Positions 1 through 48,743 of a stretch of 64,000 nt of DNA are shown here, piece by piece; the stretch's first letter is position 1; the number at the start of each line of letters is the position of its first letter. The position numbers were made by a program, and so were the translations under genes. This stretch comes from Auriscalpium vulgare. Lineage: Eukaryota; Basidiomycota; Agaricomycetes; Russulales; Auriscalpiaceae. The stretch covers positions 3,038,001 to 3,102,000 of the forward strand of contig JAHBBC010000001.1 of assembly GCA_019915015.1 (NCBI GenBank). Direction: 5' to 3'. The notes under the pieces are model-generated. The model was not told the DNA's origin and searched no databases. It saw only the letters and a list, made by a program, of their open reading frames with translations.

Positions 1-696
1 AATGTGGCGCACTCCGTGTTTTGGGCTGATAGGGTCACGACGCGCCGGCGCATGGGCTGTTCGCCGTACTTTGCGGCCACGGGCACGCAACCGTTGCTGC
101 CACTCGATATCGTCGAAGCCACGTATCTCCTACCGCCGCCAGACTCAATCTTGTCTACGACGGATCTCATCGCGAGACGGGCGGTCGCCTTGCAGAAACG
201 CCGTACACAACTGCGGACGTTGCACTCGAAAGTTTATGACGCTCGCCGAATCGCGGCCGTGAAGTTTGAACGCGATCACGAGACGTCCATCAAGGACTAC
301 AACTTTCAACGGGGCGACCTTGTCCTACTCCGCTACACACAGTATGAGAAATCGCTGGACCGGAAGATGCTCCCGCGGTACGATGGGCCCTTCATTGTCG
401 TTGCTCGGCGAAAAGGCGGCCCGTACATCCTCTGCGACTTGAACGGCGCGATCTTTGACCGCCCGGTCGCCGAATTTCGCGTCATCCCTTACTTCGCCCG
501 TACACACATGGACCTGCCCAGGCTGCCCGACTTCATAGATGTGCCGATCGACCGGGTCGTGGCACTCACGTCTGGCGACCTGGCTCCCAGTGTAGTGGGC
601 GAGCTAGGCGAGTCACGTTCGCTCAGCGAAGACGGCGCCGACGGGAGCGACCGCGCGAGTGTAGGGAGCGATGTGGACGACCATGCCGATCAATAA
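1..696 (+). CDS. Ty3/Gypsy polyprotein, C-terminal part (integrase end)
   Basis: This is the last ~231 codons of a Gypsy-type pol gene, open from the window edge to a TAA at 694-696, so its true start lies upstream. The residues match the region following the integrase catalytic core: a stretch around YFAATGTQPLLPLDI, then a basic helix rich in Arg and Lys, then the integrase C-terminal beta-barrel signature with GDLVLLR and KMLPRYDGPF. In the family this domain helps bind the integration target. The Asp/Ser-rich tail after it is poorly conserved. No chromodomain is seen. The reverse transcriptase and RNase H would lie before base 1. A G-rich box of polypurine-tract type follows 25 bp after the stop. 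Confidence 0.85.
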   Translation, partial: NVAHSVFWADRVTTRRRMGCSPYFAATGTQPLLPLDIVEATYLLPPPDSILSTTDLIARRAVALQKRRTQLRTLHSKVYDARRIAAVKFERDHETSIKDYNFQRGDLVLLRYTQYEKSLDRKMLPRYDGPFIVVARRKGGPYILCDLNGAIFDRPVAEFRVIPYFARTHMDLPRLPDFIDVPIDRVVALTSGDLAPSVVGELGESRSLSEDGADGSDRASVGSDVDDHADQ

Positions 697-720
697 GCGC
701 TGAGGACAGCTCTGTCTTCA

Positions 721-733
721 AGTTGGGGGGAGG
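721..733 (+). other. polypurine-tract-like G-run box 1
   Basis: The sequence AGTTGGGGGGAGG lies 25 bp after the Gypsy pol stop and is preceded by a short GAGGACAG-type stretch able to fold as a small hairpin. In LTR retrotransposons a purine tract at this place primes plus-strand DNA synthesis next to the 3' LTR. An LTR boundary was not found after it, because both LTRs are not in the window. Related boxes recur at 3251-3266, 4706-4718 and 6498-6510. Confidence 0.6.
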
Positions 734-924
734 TTGGCAGAGCTCACGCGTCAAGAACAGGAGGGATCTCAATTGAACAGCGGAAGACACAGGCTATTTA
801 CATTTTGGGGAAAAAGAGAAGGCTACAAGGACACGGAGAAGGCAGCAGGAAACAAGAGGGGAACGGTACAGGAAAAGAGACAGAAGAACGAGGAACCGGA
901 AACAATGGAAACGAAGCAACACCA

Positions 925-2996
925 CTACTCCAAGGCAATGACGCCAGCGACCTCCCCTTCCACCCCCTCCGAATCCTCGGCAACAGGCAGAAGGATGCCG
1001 ATGTCGCCGACATCCGAGACGGGGGTAGCGGTCGCGCCGGGCAGGAAAAGGCCGGGGTGATCATCGGCCACAGCGGCGTCGGGCGCGGGACTGGCAACGG
1101 ACTCGGGGAGGGGCGACGGGGCGAGAGGGTCGGAGAAGGACGGCCCCATTGCGATCTCGTCGCAGGAATCCTGGAACCCTCCCCAGGTGTCGTAGGATTC
1201 GGCGACAGGAGTGGGCGAACGCAGGCGGGAAGGGCCAGCGACGGGAGGCGAAGCCGTGCGAATGAGCGCACGCGGGCTGGCAAGGAGCGGAGGCGAAGGG
1301 GAGCGAGCGAGGTCTTCCAGCTCGTCTTCAAGACGCGCCCGCGACTGGGGGCCGGAGGGACCAGCGACCGGGGGAGGAGTCGAGCGGATGCGGCCGCCAG
1401 GCGCTACCCGGAGAGCAGTGGGGATGACGGGCGACGGCTCAGACGCGGGAGTGGGGGACCGATCGAGGATATCGGCGATCTGGCGCGCGCGGAGGTGGAG
1501 GCGGTCGTGGCGGCGCGCCAGGACACGGAGGGCGTGCGCGTTAGCGGACAGCTCGATATAGAGCGCATTGAGGTCGCCAAGGGTCTCGCCGAAGTCCGAG
1601 ATGGGCGCCAGAAGGGACGTCCACTCAGCCTGAGCCGTCTCGATTTCGGCCGCCATATCGCGGAGGAGCGGCGCGGCGGGGCCATATGCGCCTGCGGGAA
1701 TGGGTCAAGGCAGGTAGGGAGAAAGGAGGAGAAGTGACCTACTGGGAAGGTCGGCGAAAGCTAGCGCCTCTGGGAAGGGCATCATCGCGACGCGAGAGCC
1801 AGGGGAGAGCCCGCGGTGGTTGGGGAGCGACGGCGAACCCGGCGGGTGCGCCACTTGCAACGAGGACGGAGGGTTGGCGCGCGCGCGTTTGCGTGGGCGA
1901 GGTCCAGGCGAAGGCGAGTCGGCGCGGGTACGGCGCTTGGGCCGCTGTACGTACCCGCCCTCCAGAACAGCGCCACCACAGTGCTTCTTGTGCACCCGGC
2001 ACTTGACGCACTTGGCGAGACTGTGGGGCTTGAAATAGCAGTCCGCGGGCTCGTCGAAGTGATAACGGCAGTACGTGCACCGCTGACTGGTCTACAGAGG
2101 ATGGAGGGGCGGTCAGACTCTAGGAGGACGAGACGGGAGGCAAGAACGCACCGGGACACGTTCACCGGCGTACCGCTCGACGAACGTGGGACGGACGCGG
2201 GAAGTTTGGTAGAGGGGATCGCCCTCGTCGTCGACCTCGCTGGACAGGGCGTCGGCGTCGATCGGGGCGCGGGTCTTCTTGCGGGCTTGACTCCGCGTTC
2301 GCTTGCGTGTAGGGGGAGTCGCGGGTACGGGCGCGGTAACGGCGGGGGGAGGAATGACCGGAGCGGGCACAACGGCGGTGCGAGCCCTGCGGGCTGCGTT
2401 CCGTTGGGCTCGCTCGTCGCGTGGAGAGAGCGGTGCGGGCTCGGGCTCGGGAGGCGGGACCGCAGGAGCCGCAGCGACGACGGGCGGGGGGACCGCTGGG
2501 CGTGCCGGGATCACGACCTCGACGCGAGCCGGCTTCTTGACGGGCTGGGGGCGGAGCGATTAGCGGACGTGAGAAGGGTGAGATGACGAGAACGCACCTT
2601 CTTCTTACGGGACGCGGGGGTAGGACGTGCCGGGCTGGCAGCAGGAGGGGAAGGGGCCGGGAACGGCGCGAGAGGCGCAAACGTCGGAGCGGGCGCGGGA
2701 TCGGCGGGGCGGAGGCGGCCGACCGCGCTGTCCAAGAGGCGGAGGCGGTCCGCCACACCGGGAGGCAGCGCGACGGCGCGACCCAGTAATGCCCACAGGC
2801 GCTCCTGAAGGGAAGGTTAGCAAGGCGGACACGAAAAAGGGGAGAGTGGGGCACGCACGGAAACGACGGCTGCGCGAACGCACCAAGCCTGCCGCTCAGC
2901 GACTGTACCGGACGCCGGGAGGTCGGCCTCCACGGAGGCCAGGTCGGCGACGACGATGTCGCGGGCGAAATCAGCCAGGGCGGACGGGTCGGCCAT
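925..2996 (-). CDS. antisense gene 1 of the Gypsy region: Pro-rich protein with a Cys/His zinc-type motif
   Basis: A spliced gene runs opposite to the Gypsy pol. I start it at the ATG at 2996 (MADPSALADF). Introns with GT-AG ends fall near 2855-2810, 2597-2545, 2152-2098 and 1738-1693, and joining the exons keeps one frame to the stop at 925. The order is a short helical N-terminus, an Ala/Pro-rich linker, a basic segment, and then a compact motif with CTYC, an internal Cys and His, CVKC and HKKHC. That spacing suggests a zinc-binding fold, which is an inference. A second helical segment starting MAAEIETAQ and a Ser/Pro-rich tail with the repeat PPVAGPS end the protein. No known enzyme domain is visible. 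It may be a captured host gene or an antisense gene carried by the element. Confidence 0.6.
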
Positions 2997-3427
2997 GGAA
3001 AGCGTGCGCGAGGAAAGGGAGGGGAAGTGAAGGCCAAGAACAAGAAGCGAAGCGCGGCGAACTTGTGGCACAAAAGAGACGCTGATGCCGTACAGATGAG
3101 CTGGGCCGTGCGTAGCGCGCGAGTTTTGCTTCCGTGTATAGGCGCCCTAGCTCGGCAGCAGGCGTGTAGTCACTATGACGTACGCGCGCAGCTACTTCGG
3201 AGCACTGCCTCGCGGCCACCAGAAAACCTACAAGTCGGAAGCGCCCATCACTCAGTGGGGGGGCGGATCGCGCGGAAGAGGTCGATGGTAGCCGACAAGG
3301 GGCAATGCACTGGGATCACTATACCATCAACGCGCAAGCAACCTTTTATTGCATTCCGACTACTAACGCACAGGATAGCTGGGCGACCAAGAACCTCTAC
3401 TGTCTTCGCCCAGCTACGCAGACGCAT
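2997..3427. other. spacer between antisense genes 1 and 2, with a degenerate G-run box
   Basis: No gene is supported here. It holds a variant box, CTCAGTGGGGGGGCGG, at 3251-3266, about 255 bp 5' of antisense gene 1. That is the same relative place as the boxes 5' of antisense genes 2 and 3. Confidence 0.5.
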
Positions 3428-4591
3428 TTACGTTGCGGAGGCGTTCACGCCGGCGTTCGCCGAACGAGGGCGGAACCGTCCCGCGCGGCGCGCAGGAGGG
3501 ACGTACGCGCCTTCCTCCATAGGGTTGTGCACGGGGCGACCCCCGCGACCGGTATCGCCGACTAGAATGATGTCCTCCTCGCCGGGGTGGCCCGTCACCG
3601 AAGGCGGCAGCCCGGCCACGCGAAGGGAACGCGCCAACGACGTGACGAGGCGAAAACGATCAAGCATGACAGCCCAGAGCGTAAGGTCGTGAATATGTTC
3701 CCGCGCGGTGGCTTCCAGCTGGTCGGCCGCGCGGGCAAACTCAACGCCATATGCCAGGTCGGAAGTACGGGAGCCGCGGACGAGCTGGACGTAATCGAAA
3801 GCGAGGCGAAGGTGTACAATGGAATCTTCGGCGTACGTCAGGAAGGACGCTGAAATGGGGCCGGCGATGCGTTGGAAGGTTTCGGCGAGGTCCACGGCGG
3901 TGCCGCCCGCGGCGGCGGTGGTGGCATGATAGGCCGCGGACAGGATGATCTGGGAGCCGCCATGCTCGGCGCGAAGGGCGGTGGAACACGCATACATGGC
4001 GTCGACGATCCCCTCATGCACTGCCAGACAGCCAGGGTTCTGGCGAAGGGGTACGCGGGTGCGGTACAACGCCCCGAGTTCGCCCTGGTACGCTGCGTGC
4101 GAGAGCTGGCCGCCCTCGAGCATCTTGAACAAGACAGCTTCGCCGAGGCGGACAACGTCACGCCCGTGGCTCAAAACTCCGCGGAAGGAAAGGGCGGCGA
4201 GGGGCGGCTGCCCGAGCGGATCTTGCGCGAGGCTGTTCGCCGGGGGCGCCGAGGCCATAACGAGGGACCCACCCCATACGGCGAACGTGTCGCGAACGTG
4301 GGGGGCGACAACGAAGAGGGCCTCGAACACGGGGACAGTAACCATGGCCGCCACACGCAGGAACAATGGGCGCTCAGAAACACGGACACCCTCCTGTGGA
4401 GAATCAGTATTGGGCAGTAAAGAGCGGCCGCGCAGTTCACATACAATGGCACCAGCCACGCGGCGACCCCAGGCTTCCCTCTCCTCGACAAGGGCGACCA
4501 CGGGAGTAGCCTCTAGCATCAGCGACGGCGGGGCGAGGAGAAGCGTGAGCAAGTCGAGGGCGCGGACAGACAGGACAAAAGGCGACGGCAT
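3428..4591 (-). CDS. antisense gene 2 of the Gypsy region, unknown helical protein
   Basis: An open frame of 387 codons starts with MPSPFVLSV and ends at 3428. A short intron may lie near 4420-4370 (an acceptor ending CCACAG), because the paralogue at 5124-6347 has an acceptor at the matching place. The protein is Ala/Leu/Val-rich and predicted all-helical by composition. The C-terminus is basic (PPARRAGRFRPRS). Blocks shared with antisense gene 3 include VALxExExWGR, a P-x-FE-x8-AP stretch and LFK. No domain of known function is recognised. A G-run box lies 115 bp 5' of the start codon. It may be a gene belonging to the retroelement or a host gene trapped in it. Confidence 0.55.
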   Translation of the reverse strand: MPSPFVLSVRALDLLTLLLAPPSLMLEATPVVALVEEREAWGRRVAGAIVCELRGRSLLPNTDSPQEGVRVSERPLFLRVAAMVTVPVFEALFVVAPHVRDTFAVWGGSLVMASAPPANSLAQDPLGQPPLAALSFRGVLSHGRDVVRLGEAVLFKMLEGGQLSHAAYQGELGALYRTRVPLRQNPGCLAVHEGIVDAMYACSTALRAEHGGSQIILSAAYHATTAAAGGTAVDLAETFQRIAGPISASFLTYAEDSIVHLRLAFDYVQLVRGSRTSDLAYGVEFARAADQLEATAREHIHDLTLWAVMLDRFRLVTSLARSLRVAGLPPSVTGHPGEEDIILVGDTGRGGRPVHNPMEEGAYVPPARRAGRFRPRSANAGVNASAT

Positions 4592-5123
4592 GGTACGTGG
4601 GGAGCGTCGGCGACAGATGACCCAGTCAGCTTTTATGCTACAGCCAGCCGGGACTCCTGAGCCGGCGGCCGGTGGCCGCGTGCGCCTGCGGACAGGCGAA
4701 ATTTCAGTTGGGGGGAGGACGCGCGTGGAGGAGCGCAGAGCGATCGCAGGGCGTTCGCCAGCGAACCGCCGCCGAATAGGATCCGCGGACTACAAGCGGG
4801 AAAGGCAAATCAGCGGAGCAAAAAGGGCACCTATCGGGAGATTAGCGGGCGGATCAAAGACACAAGACACAGGCGCGGCGAGAAGCACCATGAGGAACCC
4901 GGAACAGCGATAAAGGCGAGGAGGAGCGACGAGAGCACGAAGACCGCGTTGACCGGATCAGAACGACAGGACAGGGTGGGGCGGACGTTCGCCGAACCAC
5001 GCGCGAGCTTCGCCCAGTCAGTAGTGAAGGAGGAGGAACCCCCGCCTCCCCGGGTCAACGAGGAGCGTCATAAGGACTCGCACAATTGCCATTTGAAGGA
5101 GCAGAACGGTACAGAAGTATCTA
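4592..5123. other. spacer with G-run box 2
   Basis: Box AGTTGGGGGGAGG lies at 4706-4718, preceded by a GGACAGGCG stretch like the one before box 1. No other gene is supported up to 5123. Confidence 0.5.
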
Positions 5124-6347
5124 CTACTCGGCCGCGTCACGAAGGGCAGCGGCCACAGCGGATGCGGTCAGCACCACCGAGGACGTCTGTATCTCCTCAT
5201 CATCTAGTGCCACCCCCAACTCTTCGGCGATCGTTAGGGCGACTTCAGCGTTGGACGCCGCGGAACCGTTGCTAGGGCTGTAGGTGACGCCGAGGGGGCT
5301 GTACGACGCCCCGTCCTCTCCGTCGGAGGAATCGGAGAGATCGCCACCGAGCAACATCATAGCCACCGCGGAGCCGGCGAACGGATCGGCCACAGCAGCC
5401 GTCGCGGGCAGGCCAAGAAGGAAGTGGTGGTAGACGCGGCCGCGTTCCAGGAAGGCTATAAAGCTACGCTCCAGGATGACGACGGGCTCGGCAATGAGGT
5501 CGAGGAGATAAGGGGCGTCAGCCCACGCGGCGCGGATACCGACCAAGGAGCGCAAGGCGGAATGGAAGCGATCCAAGCTGCTAGTGGACTCAGCCACGAA
5601 GGCGCCCAACAAACGACCACCAAGTCCGGCGAGGTGACGGCCACGCGAAGCACGCGCGTTGAGCTGGGTAGTCAGGGAGGCGTGTTGATCGACCGTGGCT
5701 AGCAGAACACGGCTACCCCCGTCAGATTGGTCGATGACGATGGCAGCCTGCGTCAAAACACGGCGGAGAACGTCGGCGACGAAGGTCTGCATTCCGCGGG
5801 GACGATGGGCGGGGAACGTGGCGTGGAACTGACGTAGCTCCTCCAAATAAGACTCGACGTCGCTGGTCCCGGCGCGGTATGTGGTCCACAGATCCTCCTC
5901 AACGATGCTGGCTTTAAAAAGGAGCTCGCGCACGGGGAGCCCCTCGTCGGGGCCCAGGACGGCATCCCAGGGGTGCATGGGGGCGTGGTAGGCGGAGTAC
6001 AGCCGCAGGAGGGGCCGGGCCCATTCGGCGAAGCTGGCGGTAGTCGTGGGCGCTAGCAACATGGCCTGCTCAAACAAAGGCATAGCAACTCGTTCGGCGG
6101 CGGCAAAGATGCTGGGCGAACTGCCGCGGTCCAAGTTTTCCTGTGGGCAATTACGGTCAGATTTGGGCGTAAAAACGGACGAGCAACGCGGTTCACGTAC
6201 CAGGAGGGCCACCAGCTGGCGCCCCCAAGTCTCCAGCTCGGCCAGGGCCACGGCGGAGTCTTCGGCGAACGCGAAGGGACGCGGGACTTCAGCGAGCTGG
6301 CGTAAGGTATGGAGTTGGAAGGCAAGGATGGAAGGGGACCAGGCCAT
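5124..6347 (-). CDS. antisense gene 3 of the Gypsy region, paralogue of antisense gene 2
   Basis: The frame is open upstream to 6575, but I start at the ATG at 6347 (MAWSPSILAF). The residues before it are a low-complexity leader without likeness to gene 2, whereas similarity begins just inside this start. Shared blocks are VALAELETWGR, MPLFEQAMLLAP and LLFKASIVEEDLW. A likely intron with an acceptor ending GCCCACAG lies near 6185-6145. The protein is helical, with an acidic Ser-rich stretch (DSSDGEDG) before an Ala/Val-rich end. The function is unknown. It carries a G-run box 151 bp 5' of the start, as gene 2 does. Retention of a long open frame beside transposon debris suggests recent insertion or selection. 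Confidence 0.55.
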   Translation of the reverse strand: MAWSPSILAFQLHTLRQLAEVPRPFAFAEDSAVALAELETWGRQLVALLVREPRCSSVFTPKSDRNCPQENLDRGSSPSIFAAAERVAMPLFEQAMLLAPTTTASFAEWARPLLRLYSAYHAPMHPWDAVLGPDEGLPVRELLFKASIVEEDLWTTYRAGTSDVESYLEELRQFHATFPAHRPRGMQTFVADVLRRVLTQAAIVIDQSDGGSRVLLATVDQHASLTTQLNARASRGRHLAGLGGRLLGAFVAESTSSLDRFHSALRSLVGIRAAWADAPYLLDLIAEPVVILERSFIAFLERGRVYHHFLLGLPATAAVADPFAGSAVAMMLLGGDLSDSSDGEDGASYSPLGVTYSPSNGSAASNAEVALTIAEELGVALDDEEIQTSSVVLTASAVAAALRDAAE

Positions 6348-7039: not shown

Positions 7040-9457
7040 CTAGTAGGAGAAGGACGGCAGCGGCAGCGCGCCCCAGGATAGAGAGCGCGCTGTGGTTGGG
7101 GGTTTTCGCCAGCGGTCGCGCGCTCTCACGCTCCTTCTTACCCTCTCTCCTCTCGCCCCAGGCAGTAGAGCACTCCTCACCCCGACCCTTGGCCCCCCCA
7201 GCGACTGCAGTGGGGGTTTACTCATCAGCGGCGCCAGCTTGTCCTGCACCTCTCGCTTCGCCCACACGCGACACCCCCACTCGTGGAGTTCCCCGAGTTG
7301 AGGCTTTTGTTTGTGTACGCGTTCGAACGGAGTAGCTCCCGGCAGCGCGCGCGAGCCGGTCCGGTTCCAAATCCAGACGGCATGGGACATCGCCGCAGCC
7401 CATAGGAACTTCGGCAAGCCCGATCCAATGAGCATAGCACGTGCGCGGGTCACAATAGTGCGGTTCAAGCGTTCAGCAACGCCGTTCTGCGCCGACGAGT
7501 CATGCACGGTTTTCTCGTGGTGAGTACCCACATTTTTGAGATGTTCTTCGAACTCCGTGCTGACGTACTCGCCGCCGCGGTCGGTGCGGAAGGTTTTGAT
7601 GGGCCCGCCGTCGCGCTGCACCTGCACGAATTTCTCGTACTGGCGATACTTCGCGAAGGCCTCGCTTTTGGCGCGCAGGAAGTGAATTATGACCTCGTAA
7701 GTGCTGTTGTCTGCCAGCATCATCGCGTAGTTTTTACCACTGATGGATTCCACACTAGATGGTCCCCATAGGTCCGATGAAACGAGGTCGCCGTAGCGTG
7801 TCGCACGTTCCCGAGTAGTCTCTTTGGGATACGGCGCGCGCGTGATTTTTGCCTGCACGCAAGACGAGCACAAGCCCATCTCCATGGCGTAGGGGTCTAG
7901 TTCAAGTCCTTCGACGGTGCCGTCACGGACAAGTTTCTTCGCGGAATCCACGGAGATATGTCCGAGTCGACGGTGGAGTTCCGTCGCAGAGACGACAAGG
8001 TGAGCTTCGGCTGCGTTTGCCGAGACGGAGTGAAGCTGATCGTGCACCTTGTAGAGCCCGCCCGTTTGCGGGATCTCCACAATTAGGTTGCCCTTCGGGT
8101 CGTAGACACGGCACTTCCCGTCGCGAAGTCGCACGTCAAAGCCGATTCGGTCCAAGACTCCGATTGAGATCAAGGTACCGGCCATTGCGGGCGCATACAG
8201 AACATGGCGCAAGATTACCGATGTGGTTTTGTCACCCAACGGCAATTTGACGAGGACATCGCCATAGCCGTAGGATGTGAAGGTGCGCTTGTCCGCTGCC
8301 GTTATAGGCTTCGGCTCGGTGCTGACGAAATTCTGGAATTCGTCGCGATAGGGGGACATGTGGTGGCTCGCGCCGGTATCCATGCATCGCACGGCGATCT
8401 TCGACGCGTCCGACGACACTTTAGCAAGCGCCGCCTGGTCCGTGGCGATCCACGCAAAAGGCGGCTCCTCGGAGTCCTGCGCCGCAGCGATATTCGCTTT
8501 CGGCGTCTCCTTCGACGTGGTTGCGGTCGCGGCATTCGCGGCGCGCTTTTTCTTGTCCGGCCACTGACCTTCCTTTCCTCCACCCTTGAAGAAGCAGTCC
8601 TCGGCTTTATGGCGCTTCATCCCGCAATTCGTGCACTTCTCCGTCGAGTCCTTCGACTCGGACGACTTCTTCCCCTGTCTCCTGCCCTTGCCTTTACCGG
8701 ACGAGCGCGACTGCGCGGCATTCAATGCGGTCTCGCCTGACGACCCGTTCGACTTCTCTTGTTCCTCCCGGTTGGCCTTTACTTTGAGCCAAGACCAGTG
8801 CGCGATGACGTCGGAGAGGAACTCGTCGAGGGTGCGGGATTTGCCGGTAACACGTTCGGCTGAGAACTGGGTGTCGAGGAAGGTGTCGAAGATGGACGGG
8901 AGGGACGTTTGGACGACGAGTAAGAAATCCTTGTCGTCCATGGCCATACCGAGGTTGGCTAATTTTATCTTCATTCCCAGCAAGTTGTCGATGTGCGCCT
9001 GCACGTCGGTTGTCCGCACGTCGCCCGTATATGAGCACTTCGTGTTCTGGATCTCGCGACGTAGTTCAAGCGCAAGCATGTCCGACTTCTTCTCGAATTC
9101 TTTGCATAGGGATTCCCATGCATCCTTGGCGGTCGAAAACTGCTCGAGTTTGAGGACGCGCCGTTCGGAGACAGTCGAGTAGATCTGGGTAAGGATCGTG
9201 GAGTTATTTGTCTGGTACTCATCGTATTTCTTCAGCTGCTTGTCATACTCCGCCCATTCCGCGTCAGTTGCCTTCGACGAGAGCAATTTGGGCTCTGTCG
9301 GCACGACGCGAACCTTCCCCTCGAGTTGCCGCAGTAGCCCCTTTCCGCCGAGAACCTTCAGGATCCTGGCCTTCCAGGTTATCCAGTTTGTTCCATCATC
9401 GGCGAGGACGGGGATGGTGTAAACCTTCACATTTGCGGTGTTGTCGAGGGATAGCAT
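7040..9457 (-). CDS. Ty1/Copia gag-pol, internally truncated (no reverse transcriptase)
   Basis: The frame of 805 codons begins MLSLDNTANV. Residues 1-230 are a Copia-type gag. A zinc knuckle CTNCGMKRHKAEDC (CX2CX4HX4C) sits at 275-288. The aspartic protease centre DTGAS is at 360-364. The integrase follows, with its HHCC zinc region at about 495-534 (LHRRLGHIS, CSSC) and the catalytic triad D562 (SDLWGP), D625 (TDRGGEY) and E662 (GVAERLN). Similarity stops near residue 743 (about base 7229). The rest is unrelated, low-complexity sequence, so reverse transcriptase and RNase H are missing. A C-run/G-run tract at about 7193-7215 may be the old polypurine tract, which would make this an internal-deletion derivative. 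Such a copy could move only with help from a complete relative. Confidence 0.85.
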   Translation of the reverse strand: MLSLDNTANVKVYTIPVLADDGTNWITWKARILKVLGGKGLLRQLEGKVRVVPTEPKLLSSKATDAEWAEYDKQLKKYDEYQTNNSTILTQIYSTVSERRVLKLEQFSTAKDAWESLCKEFEKKSDMLALELRREIQNTKCSYTGDVRTTDVQAHIDNLLGMKIKLANLGMAMDDKDFLLVVQTSLPSIFDTFLDTQFSAERVTGKSRTLDEFLSDVIAHWSWLKVKANREEQEKSNGSSGETALNAAQSRSSGKGKGRRQGKKSSESKDSTEKCTNCGMKRHKAEDCFFKGGGKEGQWPDKKKRAANAATATTSKETPKANIAAAQDSEEPPFAWIATDQAALAKVSSDASKIAVRCMDTGASHHMSPYRDEFQNFVSTEPKPITAADKRTFTSYGYGDVLVKLPLGDKTTSVILRHVLYAPAMAGTLISIGVLDRIGFDVRLRDGKCRVYDPKGNLIVEIPQTGGLYKVHDQLHSVSANAAEAHLVVSATELHRRLGHISVDSAKKLVRDGTVEGLELDPYAMEMGLCSSCVQAKITRAPYPKETTRERATRYGDLVSSDLWGPSSVESISGKNYAMMLADNSTYEVIIHFLRAKSEAFAKYRQYEKFVQVQRDGGPIKTFRTDRGGEYVSTEFEEHLKNVGTHHEKTVHDSSAQNGVAERLNRTIVTRARAMLIGSGLPKFLWAAAMSHAVWIWNRTGSRALPGATPFERVHKQKPQLGELHEWGCRVWAKREVQDKLAPLMSKPPLQSLGGPRVGVRSALLPGARGERVRRSVRARDRWRKPPTTARSLSWGALPLPSFSY

Positions 9458-9477
9458 GGCAATAGGGGGATTTTGCT

Positions 9478-23558: not shown

Positions 23559-24055
23559 ATATCATATCGGAAAAGTCGCACTTGGCACTTTTTTGTTGAC
23601 TTTGGCTCGGCTGCGCCATCGCAACGGAGGTCAATCCATTGTTCAATATCCGACCATTGACGACGTCGTGGTCGGTAGAGTCCCTCTTGCTTCTCAGGCA
23701 AGGATCATGTCATGCTGCACTATCTACTAGCTTCCTCCGAGAATGCTCGTCATATTGTCTGTCAATGGTGAGAGAATTGTCGATCAGCTGTCCGTTTGAT
23801 AAGCCATGGCTGGACAAGACCGTGGGCTACGCTGCCTGTTCTTAGGTGTCAGCTGCTCATTTTGTCAATGGGGGAACAGAACAGATCATGTCGAAGCTGA
23901 TGAAAATTACAGTCCGGCGATCTGTGGACAGAATACCGGTGAGAACTCTTGACCTGTACGTGCTCCAACGCGCGGGAAAACAGTATAAATCAACCGCTAG
24001 CTCATCCACCAAGTCGCCCTCACTCCTTTCATTGACACTAGCTCTTCGAACAAAC
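23559..24055. other. intergenic, promoter of SDR 3
   Basis: It contains TATAAA at 23984-23989, 67 bp before the SDR 3 start codon. No gene is seen. Confidence 0.5.
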
Positions 24056-25324
24056 ATGGTTTCTTCGAAGGGTATCGCTCTTGTGACCGGCGCTGCTCGT
24101 GGCATCGGCCGCGAAATTGCTCTCCGGCTTGCAGACGACGGCTTTGACGTCGCAGTCAATGATCTTTCTGGTACTGCTGAACTCGAGGAGGCCGCAAAAG
24201 CCATTGAAAGCAAGGGGAGGAAGTCTCTTCAATGTTTCGGGGACGTATCGGTGGAACAGGACGTCGTCGACATGATTGAGGCTGTCGTTGCTGCCATGGG
24301 CAGTCTCGACGTAGTGCGTTCATCCTTCCGTAATCAGACAGAGATGCTTACGATGTGTTCCATCAGATGGTGGCAAATGCTGGGATCCTCACCGTCCACA
24401 CGATCTTAGACGGTGCGTCTCTTCTTCCCCTATCTCCTATTGCGCACGCTCATGAGTTGCAGTTGATCCCGACGAATTCGACCGAACCTTGAGAGTCAAT
24501 GTTCGTGGCGTGATGCTCTGCTACAAGCATGCGGCGAAGCAGATGGTTGCCCAAGGACGAGGTGGTCGGATTATAGGTGTGTTCACCTTGGCCAATCTAG
24601 CGCCTGTATGCTCGAATGAACCTTTGTCTCCGTCAGCCGCCTCTTCTGTTGCAGGAAAGAAAGGCAGGCCAACATACACGTGAGAAAGGGTGATATCTCA
24701 TGAGATTGATTCAGGTTATCCGTACCTGTTTTCCTATTCCACCAGCAAATTTGCGGTGAGAGGAATGACACAAAGCGCAGGTGCGTCTCTTCACGATTGG
24801 AGAGTTGCGGCTCACCCAGTCTCATTTTCGATAACAGCTGCTGCACTTGGCAAATACGGCATAACTGTAAATGCATATGCGCCCGGTGGAGTAGACACAC
24901 GAATGCGTCAGTATAACCCATTTAATGCTCTAATCAACAATTGATGAATGCTCTATAGTTGACGACCTTGACGAACGCTTCCTCTCCGTCCTCGGGCCGG
25001 GTGGCGCGCGCAAGAATGTAATGCTGCTTATAATCACTCCACTAGCTGCGCTGTTGACAGATCGGTTTCCAGCTCGCCGCCAGTGGCTCAGTCGGTCGGA
25101 CTGGCGTTCCTGGCGATGTAGCCAATGTCGTATCTTTTCTAGCCTCGAAGGAGTCAAGCTTCGTCACTGGTAGGCCCAACCCTGCAAACCTGCGTGTCAG
25201 CACTGATGATCTCACACCTCTGCAGGGCAAAGCGTAGGTAGCAGGCAATATTCGACGTGATGATGATTGACTAACGCCTTACATTCCCCAGATCTGCGTC
25301 GACGGAGGTACTTACTTTGATTGA
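24056..25324 (+). CDS. SDR cluster member 3
   Basis: It starts MVSSKGIALVTGAARGIG and ends ICVDGGTYFD at 25324. The spliced product keeps TGAARGIG, MVANAGI, VRGVMLCYKHAAKQM, the catalytic YSTSK, ITVNAYAPGGVDTRM and VVSFLASKESSFVTG, so the enzyme is probably functional. The substrate is unknown. One intron, 24664-24714, has a GC donor (AAAG|GCAGGCC) where the paralogues at 26.5 and 29.1 kb have GT. The nearby GT alternatives break the frame. It is most similar to SDR 4, 630 bp downstream on the same strand, suggesting a tandem duplication. Confidence 0.87.
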
Positions 25325-28280: not shown

Positions 28281-28445
28281 GTTGTGGTATTCATACTACG
28301 CTTCTCGAGCTAGCTGGAGCATCATACATCGTGACTTGCGAGGCGCCGTGCCCAGTGCGCTAAGATAGCAGGTACCAATTGGCGCCAACTTGTCCCGAAG
28401 TTGGTATCCGAGTCAGCTGACGGGAGACCAGCATAAATCGCAGCA

Positions 28446-28455
28446 TATATATAAA
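28446..28455 (+). promoter_or_regulatory. TATA box of SDR 5
   Basis: ATATATAAAG, about 38 bp before the start codon at 28493. Confidence 0.5.
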
Positions 28456-28492
28456 GGGAACAAGGCTTTGCGCATCCTTCAGCACCATCGAA

Positions 28493-29804
28493 ATGTCTCT
28501 TACCAAAGGTGTAGCTTTTGTCACAGGCGCCGCCCGCGGTATGGGTCGTGGTATTGCCCTGCGATTGGCCCACGACGGCTTCGACGTTGCAGTCAACGAC
28601 ATCCCTGGCGCTGTGGGTCTCGAGGATGTCTCCAAGGACATCGAACGCCTGGGAAGAAGGTCTTACGTCGCCTTCGGCGATGTAACTTCTGAGCAGGACG
28701 TCGCTGGCGCAATAGATCGGGTTGTTGAGAAGTTGGGTAGCCTCGACGTCGTGCGTATTTCTTCAGCTTTATCGCTGCTATAGCTCATCCTCACCTTTCG
28801 CCATATCTCAGATGGTGGCCAATGCTGGGATAGCCTCCTTTGGAGGAGTGCTTGATCGTGAGTCCCTTGCTCTGTGTCGTTTCGTCTACAAATCACGGTT
28901 ATATGGTACAGTTACCCTCGAGGACTACGACCGTGTCATGGCAGTTAATGCGCGGGGAGTAATGCTATGCTATAAGCATGCGGCGAAGCAGATGGTTGCC
29001 CAAGGACGAGGTGGCCGCATCGTCGGTGCGTAATATATTTGTATCCTTCATTTCTTCATGTGTCTCAACGAGGCTTGATAGGTGCTGCCTCTTTGGCGGG
29101 TAAACAAGGTGGGATTTAATATATCATGCACACGAGGCCTAATCATTCAAAAGGGGGCCAGGGTACCCCGGTACCTTCGCATACTGTGCCAGTAAATTTG
29201 CTGTCCGAGGCATGACACAATGTGCAGGTGAACATCTGCGGCATACTGTAATCACTCCCTGTTAAGGCATGTGACTGACTCTTTCTCTTTCTCTTCGAAG
29301 CCGCAGAGTTGGGAAAGCACGGAATCACGGTGAACGCATATGCACCGGGAGCCATCGACACGCAAATGAGTTCGTCCCTAAAGCTGTCCCTAGCTCTAGA
29401 CCTTGTGGTTGACCATGTTATGATCTTGACAGTCGCTGATATGCGTGCACTGCCCTCTGGGGAGGCGACTATCAGTGCTGTGAGTGTTCCCAAATTTTCC
29501 ACCAACTCCACCCAGTCTCAACATATGCATAGTTGGTCGCGGCTTCGCCCATCGCACGATTGGGCATTCCCGAGGACGTGGCGAATCTCGTTTCATTCCT
29601 GGCTTCGAAAGAGTCTAGTTTTGTGACAGGTACTGTGCTGGTAGATACCTTTGAGCACGCCTTTCACTGACCTCAAGCTCCCGTCGTTTCCCCACCCATG
29701 CACAGGCCAGAACGTGCGTACATGCCCAAATCATATTGAGTCAGCTAATATTAATGGTTCCAATTCGGCAGATTGGCGTCAACGGCGGAGTGCACCTTGA
29801 CTGA
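28493..29804 (+). CDS. SDR cluster member 5
   Basis: It starts MSLTKGVAFVTGAARGMG and ends IGVNGGVHLD at 29804. It keeps MVANAGIAS, ARGVMLCYKHAAKQM, the catalytic pair in YCASK, ITVNAYAPGAIDTQM and NLVSFLASKESSFVTG. The frame is intact across introns placed as in the other four copies. It is the most diverged of the plus-strand copies: the cofactor loop has Met for Ile, and the insert around DMRALPSGEATISA is unlike the others. The substrate is unknown. Confidence 0.86.
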
Positions 29805-30037: not shown

Positions 30038-32118
30038 CTAATCCAACTCGTTGAGAGCACGGGCATCGAGCACTGCATCCAAGAAGTCGCGAGTGGCGAT
30101 CTCGTCGGACACACGGGCCTCGATGTACTCGAGCAGCTCGCGCTTGGACGACTGGCTGTTGTCACCGCCGAGGAAGTGGCTGATGCCCAGACCTCCAAGG
30201 AGAGTGCCGACGCCGCTGAGCGCGCCCTTCTTGAGCGCATCGCCGACGGTGGTCTCAGCAACGTGCGCAACCTCGCCGACTACGCTCCCGCGCTTCGACG
30301 ATCTGGGCAGACGTCAGGTTGATATCACTGATGTGCATAGAGAGAAACTTACTGGCTCTTGCCATCGAAGTGATCGAGGAGTCCGCCGATGCCAGCACCT
30401 CCGAGGAGGGTGCCGACGCCGCTGAGCGCGCCTTTCTTGAGGGCATCGCTGACGGTGGTCTCCGCAACGTCCGCAACCTCGCCAACTACGCTCCTCGACG
30501 ACCTGGGTAGACGTCAGGTGGGGATCAATGATGTGCATAGAAAGAAACTTACTGGCTCTTGCCGTCGAAGTGGTCGAGGAGTCCGCCGATGCCAGCACCT
30601 CCGAGGAGGGTGCCGACGCCGCTGAGCGCGCCTTTCTTGAGGGCATCGCTGACAGTGGTCTCCGCAACGTCCGCAACCTCGCCGACTACGCTCCGGGCGA
30701 CGAGGTACTCGAGCAGCTCGCGCTTGGACGACTGGCTGTTGTCACCGCCGAGGAAGTGGCTGATGCCCAGACCTCCAAGGAGTGTGCCGACGCCGCTGAG
30801 CGCGCCCTTCTTGAGCGCATCGCCCACCGTGGTCTCAGCAACGTGCGCAACCTCGCCGACTACGCTCCCGCGCTTCGACGACCTGGGTAGAACATCAGAA
30901 TGAGATCACTGATGTGGATAGAAAAAATCTTACTGGCTCTTGCCATCGAAGTGGTCGAGGAGTCCACCGATCCCAGCACCTCCAAGGAGGGTGCCGACGC
31001 CGCTGAGAGCGCCTTTCTTGAGGGCATCGCTGACGGTGGTCTCCGCAACGTCAGCAACCTCGCCGACTACGCTCCGGGCGACGAGGTACTCGAGCAGCTC
31101 GCGCTTGGACTGGCTCTTGCCATCGAAGTGGTCGAGGAGTCCGCCGATGCCAGCACCTCCAAGGAGGGTGCCAACGCCACTGAGCGCGCCTTTCTTGAGG
31201 GCATCGCTGACGGTGGTCTCCGCAACGTCCGCAACCTCGCCAACTACGCTCCTCGACGACCTGGGTAGACGTCAGGTGGGGATCAATGATGTGCATAGAA
31301 AGAAACTTACTGGCTCTTGCCGTCGAAGTGGTCGAGGAGTCCGCCGATGCCAGCACCTCCGAGGAGGGTGCCGACGCCGCTGAGCGCGCCTTTCTTGAGG
31401 GCATCGCTGACGGTGGTCTCCGCAACGTCCGCAACCTCGCCAACTACGCTCCTCGACGACCTGGGTAGACGTCAGGTGGGGATCAATGATGTGCATAGAA
31501 AGAAACTTACTGGCTCTTGCCGTCGAAGTGGTCGAGGAGTCCGCCGATGCCAGCACCTCCGAGGAGGGTGCCGACGCCGCTGAGCGCGCCTTTCTTGAGG
31601 GCATCGCTGACAGTGGTCTCCGCAACGTCCGCAACCTCGCCTACTACGCTCCGGGCGACGAGGTACTCAAGCAGCTCGCGCTTGGACGACTGGCTGTTGT
31701 CACCTCCGAGGAAGTGGCTGATGCCCAGACCTCCAAGGAGTGTGCCAACGCCGCTGAGCGCGCCCTTCTTGAGCGCATCGCCGACGGTGGTCTCAGCAAC
31801 GTGCGCAACCTCGCCGACTACGCTCCCGCGCTTGAAGGCAACGATGCCACTGCAGGACTCGTGTCAGATGCGTGGTTCCGCAGAGAGGCAATTTGTACTC
31901 ACGGGGGAAGGTGGCTGAACTCGGACTGGATCTGGGCGACCACATCCGGGGGCGTGCCTGCGGGGATACTAAGAGGAAATGGAGGTCAGAACAGAGACAT
32001 TTCCCGGTGGACCTGCTTACACAAAGGGCGACCGGGCAGAGTGCACGGGGGCGGCAGCCGCGGGCGCGATCTGAGCGGCGGCAAGAGCAAGGATGACGGC
32101 GGCGGTGGAGGGATGCAT
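30038..32118 (-). CDS. secreted repeat precursor with Kex2-type sites (KEP-like), nine repeats on amplified exons
   Basis: Eight exons (32021-32118, 31903-31968, 31511-31849, 31311-31460, 30934-31260, 30553-30882, 30353-30502, 30038-30302) join to 575 codons, giving 574 residues. Residues 1-23 are a signal peptide (hydrophobic Ala/Leu/Ile run ending in Ala-rich sequence). A pro-region to residue 62 ends AFKR. The rest is nine copies of a ~40-residue repeat with cores SVVGEVA, ETTV, DALKKGAL and SGVGTLLGG. Lys-Arg pairs end at 62, 112, 271, 331, 381, 491 and 541, which would release three identical 50-mers (63-112, 332-381, 492-541), longer pieces of 159, 60 and 110 residues, and a 33-residue tail. 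Exons 3-7 are all multiples of three with phase-2 introns on both sides, and the introns between them are nearly identical. Signal, dibasic sites and repeats match fungal Kex2-processed repeat proteins. The activity of the peptides is unknown. Confidence 0.85.
30302..31849 (-). repeat. tandem exon-intron repeat array
   Basis: Repeat cores on the plus strand lie near 30250, 30455, 30655, 30830, 31040, 31215, 31415, 31615 and 31790, about 175-205 bp apart. The 50-nt introns at 31461-31510, 31261-31310 and 30503-30552 are almost the same sequence. Those at 30883-30933 and 30303-30352 are diverged versions. Coding and intron sequence were therefore copied together. Confidence 0.9.
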
Positions 32119-46423: not shown

Positions 46424-48743
46424 CTAACAGTTGCAGGTTGCCTTGATCAGATCGGCTGCGCGTTCAGCGAGCACATACACCGCGGTTTGGGGGTGGGCAG
46501 CGGGCACGAAGGGCTGAAGGACCTGTTAAGTACGGGGCACCCAGCATACCTGAAGAGACAGGCTACTCACGAAGGCGCTAGCGTCCACGACACGGAGGCC
46601 AATGGTGCCCTTGACAGTGAGGTCGGGGTTGAGGACGCCGGCCGAGGAGCTCGTGGAGGTCATGCTGGCCGTGGAAGTCGGATGCCACACGGTCGTTGAA
46701 AACTTGCGAGCGTACGCCTCGAGCTGCGCGTCCGTGATCGCGTTGGCGTACTCGCCGACGGGCTCCAAGATAAAGCCGGAGAAGGACTTCGCCGCGAGGA
46801 ACTGCTGCCCGGACTTGATCGCCGCTACCATAGTAAAGATGTCGAAATCGGAGTTCAGGAGGCCTGGGTCGATGACCGGAGAGTCGAAGGGGCTGCTCGA
46901 CTTCAGGGTTACGGTGCCGCCTGAATGAGGTCGTGGTGAGGCATGGGAAATGAGGAGAATGGGCTGACCGGAACTTACGAGATGTAGGAGATACAACGTT
47001 TGTGAACAGAGTGAAGAAATTACCCGTTGAGGGAGCCGTGAGGCCAGCAAATGATACAAAGCCGTCCTGCAAACGCATATACATGTCAGCCATTGGACCA
47101 ACCAACATGCCCGATGCGTACGCACAGTGAAGATCAGTTCGTAGTGCCCAGACGTGGGCCCAGCCGACGGATCCGTCGTAGTCTTGAAGATGCTCGATGT
47201 CGAAGGCAGACGTAACCACCCAAGCTGGTTCGCGGGTCCAAGGACGAGCTCGCCGGTGTGCGACGACTCCCACTGGGCCACCAAGTCCCCTGCAAACGTC
47301 GCGTTCTGGGAGATCGCGTCGAAGGTGGCCTGGGCAGTGGTGTTCACGGAGTACTGGCTCGACAGCAAGGGGTGGTCTTGCAAGTTGGCGCCGACATTCG
47401 CATTGTTGACAATGGTAGTGATGCCGTACTTGCTGAGCTCGGCCGAAGGGCCGATGCCGGAGAGCTTAAGCAGCTGGGGAGTCTTGACAGATCCCGCAGA
47501 TACGATGACCTCGCGCGTCGCATTGAGGACGTACTTTGTTGCTGATCGAAGTCAGCACGAGGACATGGCGTGTGAGATTCGCGCTTACCCGTCGCAGAGG
47601 TAGCGAACTGGACTCCTCGGAACACGGGCGTGCCAGACTGGGTGCCGGTCGAGATGAGCTTGGTCGCCTGCGTGTTGATCAGAACGTCGAAGTTCGTGCG
47701 GCTCAAAGCCGGTTTGATGTACGACGTGTAGGAGCTCGCACGCTGTCCGCCCCCAATGGTAAACTGCACCCAGCCTACACATCAAAGGCGGGGTTAGACG
47801 CGTCAACGCCGACAGCTTTCGCAGGATGCACATACCGATCCCAATGGTGTTCCCAGAGTTCATGTCCTGATTGAATGGGAACTGCGTGGGGAGGTCGGCC
47901 GTCGCGCCAATGACCTTCGAGTCCGTGACGAGCGGGAAGCCCGGAAGGGACACATCCACGGGTCCACTCGTTCCATGAATAGAAGGAGTGATCTCGCCCT
48001 GCGTGTTGTGGTTGTCCGCCGGTGCGACCAGCTTCTCCATCTGCAAGATCGACCGGCGTCAATCAGTCAGATGGCCCAAGTCGGCGTTGACAGCAGACGG
48101 ACCTTCTTGAAGTATGATTGCAACGAGTTCCACGACCAGCCGGAGTCACCTGTCACCGTGGCGAAGCGATTCCAGTCATCCTGAGAGGCGCGGTTGTGCA
48201 CCATGAAGTCTGAGAGGGGAGGTCTTAGGTCTCCTGCGGATGCCTAGACATACACCGGTGCGACTCACTGATGGACGTAGATCCTCCGAGTCCGAACCCA
48301 CGAGAATAAAGAATGGAACGGCCATCGAGACCTGCCTGCGCTGTCGTAGTGAAATTCCAGTCGAGTGCTGTGCCAATTTGGTTCGGAGCAAAAAACGGTA
48401 TTTCTGTTCCGAGGACGCCGTCAACACTGAAGGGGTGTCGACGATCAATCACTTTGCTCAAAGTGACAGACGGGGATCGTGCTCACTTGCCACCAGCTTC
48501 GATGAGGAGAACGTTGATGTTGGAGAGCTCGGACAAGCGCGCCGCGACCGTGCCACCACCGGCGCCCGCTGTAGAGCTGTTAAGATCACGAGACAGAGAA
48601 GCTGATTGAGAAGACGCACAGCCGATTACGATGTAATCATAGGTCTTCTTTGGGAGCTGAGAAGGGTCGGTATAGAGAGCTGCCAAAGCAGGACCCGCAG
48701 CTAGGAGTAAAGAAAGAAGAGCGGGTCGCGAAGACAACACCAT
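46424..48743 (-). CDS. secreted GMC oxidoreductase (aryl-alcohol oxidase / choline dehydrogenase-like)
   Basis: It starts MVLSSRPALLSLLLAAG at 48743; residues 1-21 are a signal peptide. Splicing gives YDYIVIGSGAGGGTVAARL (FAD-binding dinucleotide fold) and NVLLIEAGG, GMC signature 1 (RGFGLGGSTSI), signature 2 (VSAGSVKTPQLLKLSGIG), and the ending with the catalytic His in VWHPTSTASM and NPDLTVKG-LRVVDASAF. The last exon finishes AERAADLIKATCNC at 46424. These flavoenzymes oxidise alcohols, and in wood-decay fungi the secreted forms supply hydrogen peroxide for lignin-attacking peroxidases. That ecological role is an inference. About ten small introns are present. Aryl-alcohol oxidase is the best guess but the exact substrate is open. 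Confidence 0.88.

Follow-up and report, generated by a model that had tools for sequence, protein, structure and literature searches.

A candidate arginine-delimited precursor of glycine-rich repeat peptides in Auriscalpium vulgare

The 64-kb stretch of DNA that we analyzed (the window), from the pinecone-rotting mushroom Auriscalpium vulgare, contains a gene whose product we interpret as a secreted, kexin-cut precursor of nine ~50-residue peptides that are delimited by Arg, belong to a family, and have a surface-active role; this combined reading is the best explanation of the data, and we give it about an even chance of being right as a whole. Judged by its sequence, the gene is a real and well-preserved precursor of the KEP (KEX2-processed repeat protein) kind, and the original prediction of a kexin-type, repeat-bearing precursor with a secreted-looking sequence was borne out, with a kexin-like gene also being present in the genome.

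Anatomy of the precursor gene

The gene model, rebuilt from the sequence, lies on the minus strand, with its ATG at 32118 and its stop codon ending at 30038. Eight exons encode 574 residues without an internal stop, and the seven introns have GT-AG ends and are 50 to 53 nt each. The precursor is laid out as a signal-like N-terminus (residues 1–23; 32050–32118), judged by eye from the sequence, a pro-region (residues 24–62; 31828–32049, with introns at 32020–31969 and 31902–31850), and nine ~50-residue Gly-rich repeats. The pro-region ends in AFKR and thus in Lys-Arg, as had been predicted, and the predicted number of repeats was also recovered. These repeats are of two types, with three of type A (starting at residues 64, 333, and 493) and six of type B (starting at residues 122, 172, 222, 281, 391, and 441). 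Repeat 1 (31678–31827, ending SSKR) is the first of three identical copies of the type A 50-mer (GSVVGEV...SSKR), the others being repeats 6 (30720–30869) and 9 (30140–30289). Three copies of the acidic linker ELLEYLVAR, placed from the flanking coordinates, follow repeat 1 (31651–31677), repeat 4 (31074–31100), and repeat 6 (30693–30719). The type B units are repeats 2 (31451–31650, intron 31510–31461) and 3 (31251–31450, intron 31310–31261), both with single-Arg ends (SSR); repeat 4 (31101–31250, ending SKR); repeat 5 (30870–31073, ending SSKR, intron 30933–30883); repeat 7 (30493–30692, ending SSR, intron 30552–30503); and repeat 8 (30290–30492, ending SSKR, intron 30352–30303). A C-terminal tail, ELLEYIEAR-VSDEIATR-DFLDAVLDAR-ALNELD plus stop, occupies 30038–30139.

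Indirect support for the splicing pattern came from paralogue models and not from the window gene itself: compared by eye, two predicted A. vulgare proteins matched two such models along the greater part of their sequence. P0036 was paired with paralogue C2_A, from which it differs at one junction, and P0006 closely resembled the first ~110 residues of paralogue C19_A.

The 45 residues compared were identical among units within each type, and all 16 variable codons were synonymous (five of five among the three A units and 11 of 11 among the six B units). Because the codons vary in this way and a tandem-repeat finder scored the array at up to 1896, the repeats are not a product of chance. Three of the five repeat introns were identical over 50 nt and a fourth differed at 6 of 50 positions, while the fifth, at 51 nt, fell outside this comparison. 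The repeat copies are young, and despite this the protein sequence of the repeats seems to be held constant by selection.

Other features of the window include two short-chain dehydrogenase genes on the plus strand (23846–24409 and 28421–28783), the second of which seems by eye to have further exons reaching ~29800, adjoining the 3' end of the precursor gene. A piece of a Copia-type LTR retroelement gag/pol (Retrotran_gag_2, Pol_BBD, and gag_pre-integrs; 7040–9475) and a piece of a GMC oxidoreductase (46526–47551) are on the minus strand, and positions 1–6000 have a GC content of 0.64 to 0.66 and an AT skew of 0.19 to 0.29, above most of the window, along with long overlapping open frames.

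Arginine at the unit boundaries

In the rebuilt protein the Arg of each Lys-Arg pair falls at residue 62, 112, 271, 331, 381, 491, or 541, exactly as first listed, and cutting there on paper yields, besides the first 62 residues, the same 50-mer three times together with pieces of 159, 60, 110, and 33 residues. The conclusion that three 50-mers and irregular pieces of 159, 60, and 110 residues are the products is nevertheless probably wrong, since the family pattern suggests that single Arg residues are boundaries as well. Lys-Arg is found at five of the eight repeat junctions, three of which continue into ELLEYLVAR, and the remaining three junctions have only a single Arg (SSR). With single Arg also taken as a boundary, all nine repeats become equal ~50-mers. 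If the chain past the signal peptide is cut after every Arg, 18 fragments result: the A 50-mer (three), the B 50/51-mer (six), ELLEYLVAR (three), ELLEYIEAR (one), a 33-residue pro-peptide, and four short pieces. The computed monoisotopic masses of the trimmed A core and the trimmed 49-residue B core are 4548.35 and 4669.41, respectively.

All 17 Arg residues of the precursor lie outside the nine 45-residue cores, an exclusion with a crude chance of 1.6e-10 that treats the non-independent repeats as independent. The same bias was seen in a set of 11 family proteins comprising the window protein, three paralogue models (C19_B was used and C19_A left out), and seven homologues. A core motif with fixed limits of -20/+22 located 37 cores (29 distinct; cores without the motif were not counted), and the distinct cores held 84 Lys and 1 Arg, compared to 80 Lys and 154 Arg in the rest of the proteins (Fisher 2e-29, a weight that is overstated as the sequences are related). 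Narrower limits of -18/+20 gave 71 Lys and no Arg, and limits of -25/+22, which extend beyond the boundary, gave 94 Lys and 13 Arg. For 35 cores we tabulated the residue preceding the bounding Arg, which was Ala (22), Lys (6), Ser (4), Pro (2), or Leu (1) upstream and Lys (22), Ser (8), Thr (3), or Gln (2) downstream; the left core edge was placed at Arg in this set, making its own Lys to Arg count partly circular, and the fixed limits were used for that count instead.

More remote sequences showed a related arrangement. We aligned 44 of the 88 Mycena-type proteins that had been fetched (ids P0010–P0079, 240 to 295 residues, with a Met start and an ELD or DLD end), and eight columns that were at least half Arg (Arg fractions of 0.66 to 1.0) contained 312 of the 397 Arg residues, with the residue before them varying but mostly being K, R, S, A, T, or V. 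A distant A. vulgare paralogue at C1:1.80 Mb has other cores and the same plan, with five Arg-bounded cores of 50 to 51 residues and linkers such as DFDELDAR and DFDDFLAVR. Since Arg is retained while the residue ahead of it varies, the second basic residue looks optional at the unit boundaries. A C-terminal [DN][DE]LD was common to 76 of the 92 proteins gathered, and this ending looks like an acidic linker that has been shortened by the stop codon.

Two other readings of the boundaries were weighed against this pattern. Processing by Kex2 at Lys-Arg only, with release of three 50-mers and tandem pieces of 159, 60, and 110 residues, agrees with the seven real sites at such spacing and with the five Lys-Arg repeat junctions, but homologous boundaries keep Arg while the preceding residue changes (in one column R15, S12, A9, T6, and G1), and the upstream Arg lacked a preceding Lys in 29 of the 35 cores, so we regard this reading as unlikely. 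Less probable still is that the protein escapes processing and remains long and repetitive, with helical repeats, in the cell wall or matrix. Low-confidence models with helical repeats would suit such a protein, and Rsp3 of Ustilago maydis, a repetitive protein that decorates hyphae, offers a precedent (PMC5923269); set against these points, Arg sits at the boundaries and Lys is common inside the cores, and the distant paralogue retains both linkers and Arg. The Arg patterning could also arise from a constraint other than cleavage.

The pro-region of the window protein resembles a Lys-Arg-bounded module of C2_A (FVLPDxLTPxQ...KR) that occurs five times ahead of the Gly-rich cores of that paralogue. 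Four of the five modules have introns at both of the places seen in the window pro-region, as compared by eye, and one has the first only. P0036 of A. vulgare has four modules and P0002 of Artomyces has several similar ones. Because the module is repeated in C2_A, P0036, and Artomyces P0002, the pro-region is probably a second peptide product rather than a leader alone. The difference between five modules in C2_A and four in P0036 suggests that copy number may vary between strains.

Homologues and paralogues

Protein searches found homologues, of which those in the Russulales are close. About 8000 candidates were scored in each of three protein searches, and the match counts are lower bounds. 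Two Artomyces pyxidatus proteins were among the matches listed for the full-length protein. Profile A1, built from sequences of this genome and Artomyces only, gave at least 11 matches that included Artomyces (1), Auriscalpium (3), Gloeopeniophorella (2), and Mycena (1, E 1.8e-3) besides four without a name, with unnamed Mycena-like matches from 3e-5. Profile A2 gave at least 83 matches, and the 47 with names among those listed were from Mycena (34), Roridomyces (6), Artomyces (4), Auriscalpium (1), Gloeopeniophorella (1), and Rickenella (1), while 36 had no name; this profile pooled Mycena-type and Russulales sequences, so its low E-values do not test the link between them. Family membership within the Russulales is firm, and the link to the Mycena-type proteins is weak by sequence, its main footing being the Arg plan and the C-terminus that both groups have in common; Gly-rich composition could inflate this similarity. 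We conclude that the family of Arg-delimited Gly-rich peptide precursors probably extends through mushroom-forming fungi beyond the Russulales.

Searching the 51.63-Mb genome (96 contigs, with the window gene on contig C1) and merging matches within 3 kb produced 20 clusters. The window-type core was present in three of these, namely the window, C2:722–727 kb, and C19:958–962 kb, with five gene models. The other 17 were found mainly by a distant-type query; among the distant loci, the reading of L041, L042, and L044 covered frames only, and L045 was left out. Bridges between the window-type and distant-type sequences in the genome had E-values of 2.4e-6 to 0.04. The C19:958–962 kb locus (L010) has two paralogues in which mini-exons encode a linker that carries both KR and a sequon of the N-glycosylation type; the first of them, C19_A, shifts frame within the final repeat and seems to be decayed.

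The original statement that no described family was recognized agreed with the Pfam, PDB, and literature searches, yet homologues do exist. PDB sequence searches gave no significant match (best E 0.42), and the literature that we searched by title and abstract held no description of this family, although members may be listed in tables that supplement the KEP surveys. Pfam scores above the cut-offs for the full protein, for PRC_RimM (51.7 bits) and FAM25 (38.1 bits), were rejected as they are summed over the repeats, with no single stretch passing.

Proposed processing and comparison with known systems

We propose that the precursor would enter the secretory pathway by means of its N-terminal signal and be cut after Arg, at both Lys-Arg and single Arg, by a kexin-type protease. 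Such cutting would release nine equal ~50-residue Gly-rich peptides (three A and six B). The short acidic linkers and a single pro-peptide of ~33 residues would be freed as well, and a Kex1-type carboxypeptidase may then trim the C-terminal basic residues. Kexins usually prefer dibasic sites, and the core has an internal KK that would stay uncut under the Arg-delimited reading. One kexin-like gene was found in the genome; its S8 and P-domain pieces lie at C4:1.86 Mb, and the P-domain had one match. When KEPs of Coprinopsis cinerea were expressed in Pichia, products of cleavage at single Arg were reported (PMC9769878).

The precursor resembles the KEPs (Le Marquer 2019, Umemura 2020, Vogt 2022) in its signal-like N-terminus, its units bounded by basic residues, and the occurrence of a kexin-like gene. 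It differs in that its units are ~50 residues long, compared to 9 to 24 residues in the commonest class of Dikarya, yeast-like basidiomycetes excepted (PMC6339444); three of its eight junctions have a single Arg only; it has a second kind of module and acidic linkers; and there are homologues with non-identical units. What sets it apart from known KEPs is that Arg alone apparently delimits the units and that the build is modular; no name was found for its family. Precursors of dikaritin or ustiloxin-type RiPPs share the KEP-like plan, but a dikaritin-type RiPP cluster was rejected because no UstYa-family gene is nearby: UstYa had no match in the 64-kb window and 14 in the genome, the nearest on the same contig being at 0.71–0.78 Mb, compared to 3.07 Mb for the precursor gene.

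Our best guess at a function, made by analogy, is that the products may be abundant helical peptides on hyphae that are surface- or interface-active outside the cell, like the repellents of smut fungi. Rep1 of U. maydis is a 652-residue precursor from which kexin releases ten amphipathic peptides of 35 to 53 residues and one of 228 (PMC4617103). The guess is made because the size and copy number of the units resemble those of Rep1, and because the core shows modest amphipathicity toward its N-terminus. The ~50-residue units fall within the 35- to 53-residue range, in a comparison by description only, and no Ustilago name appeared among the named matches listed in the protein and profile searches, in which many matches are nameless. 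The predicted amphipathic Gly-rich core held up in part, with modest amphipathicity in the A core, the B core, and an Artomyces core (shuffle p of 0.019, 0.013, and 0.004, respectively) but no significance for a C2_A core (0.38) or the second B segment (0.26). AlphaFold2 models of a two-repeat exon of the window gene and of Artomyces P0003 had low-confidence helices (mean pLDDT of 53 and 48, respectively). In contrast to the Rep1 case, the A. vulgare genome keeps hydrophobins (6 matches), and a repellent role could therefore be redundant. The net negative charge of the core also counts against the repellent-like guess, and it stands, along with the low confidence of the modelled helices, beside the original suggestion of a possibly membrane-active or self-assembling peptide.

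Two other roles appear improbable to us, to a similar degree. A defensive role, in which the released peptides would act on the membranes of microbes or animals, would accord with Gly-rich, modestly amphipathic segments and several paralogues, but the cores carry a net charge of -2 to -3, and the synthetic KEP peptides tested by Vogt et al., which are other and shorter ones, showed no antibacterial activity (PMC9769878). The family might instead be, or work like, the small secreted proteins Ssp1-6 of Pleurotus ostreatus and MiSSP24 of Laccaria bicolor, influencing ligninolytic enzymes. These are likewise small secreted multigene families of Agaricomycetes, the same fungal class (PMC5674062), but the likeness is by description alone and no Pleurotus or Laccaria name was among the 47 named of at least 83 matches listed.

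Returning to the Arg-delimited reading, its broadest form is an Arg-alone cut system across mushroom-forming fungi, with no constraint on the residue before the Arg, in which each precursor would release several ~40- to 60-residue Gly-rich helical peptides and short acidic linkers of the [DE]xx[DE]LxAR-like kind, some precursors also yielding an N-terminal peptide that can be repeated; such a large overlooked class, with ~20 places in this genome, we hold to be a serious candidate whose chances are somewhat short of even. KEP screens seek repeated sequences with kexin sites that are mostly dibasic (PMC9769878, PMC7329392). Should single Arg prove to be the real delimiter here, these screens would misjudge the products of the family and could miss homologues with non-identical units. 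If the interpretation is true, litter- and wood-decay fungi would possess a class of secreted peptides for which we know of no role.
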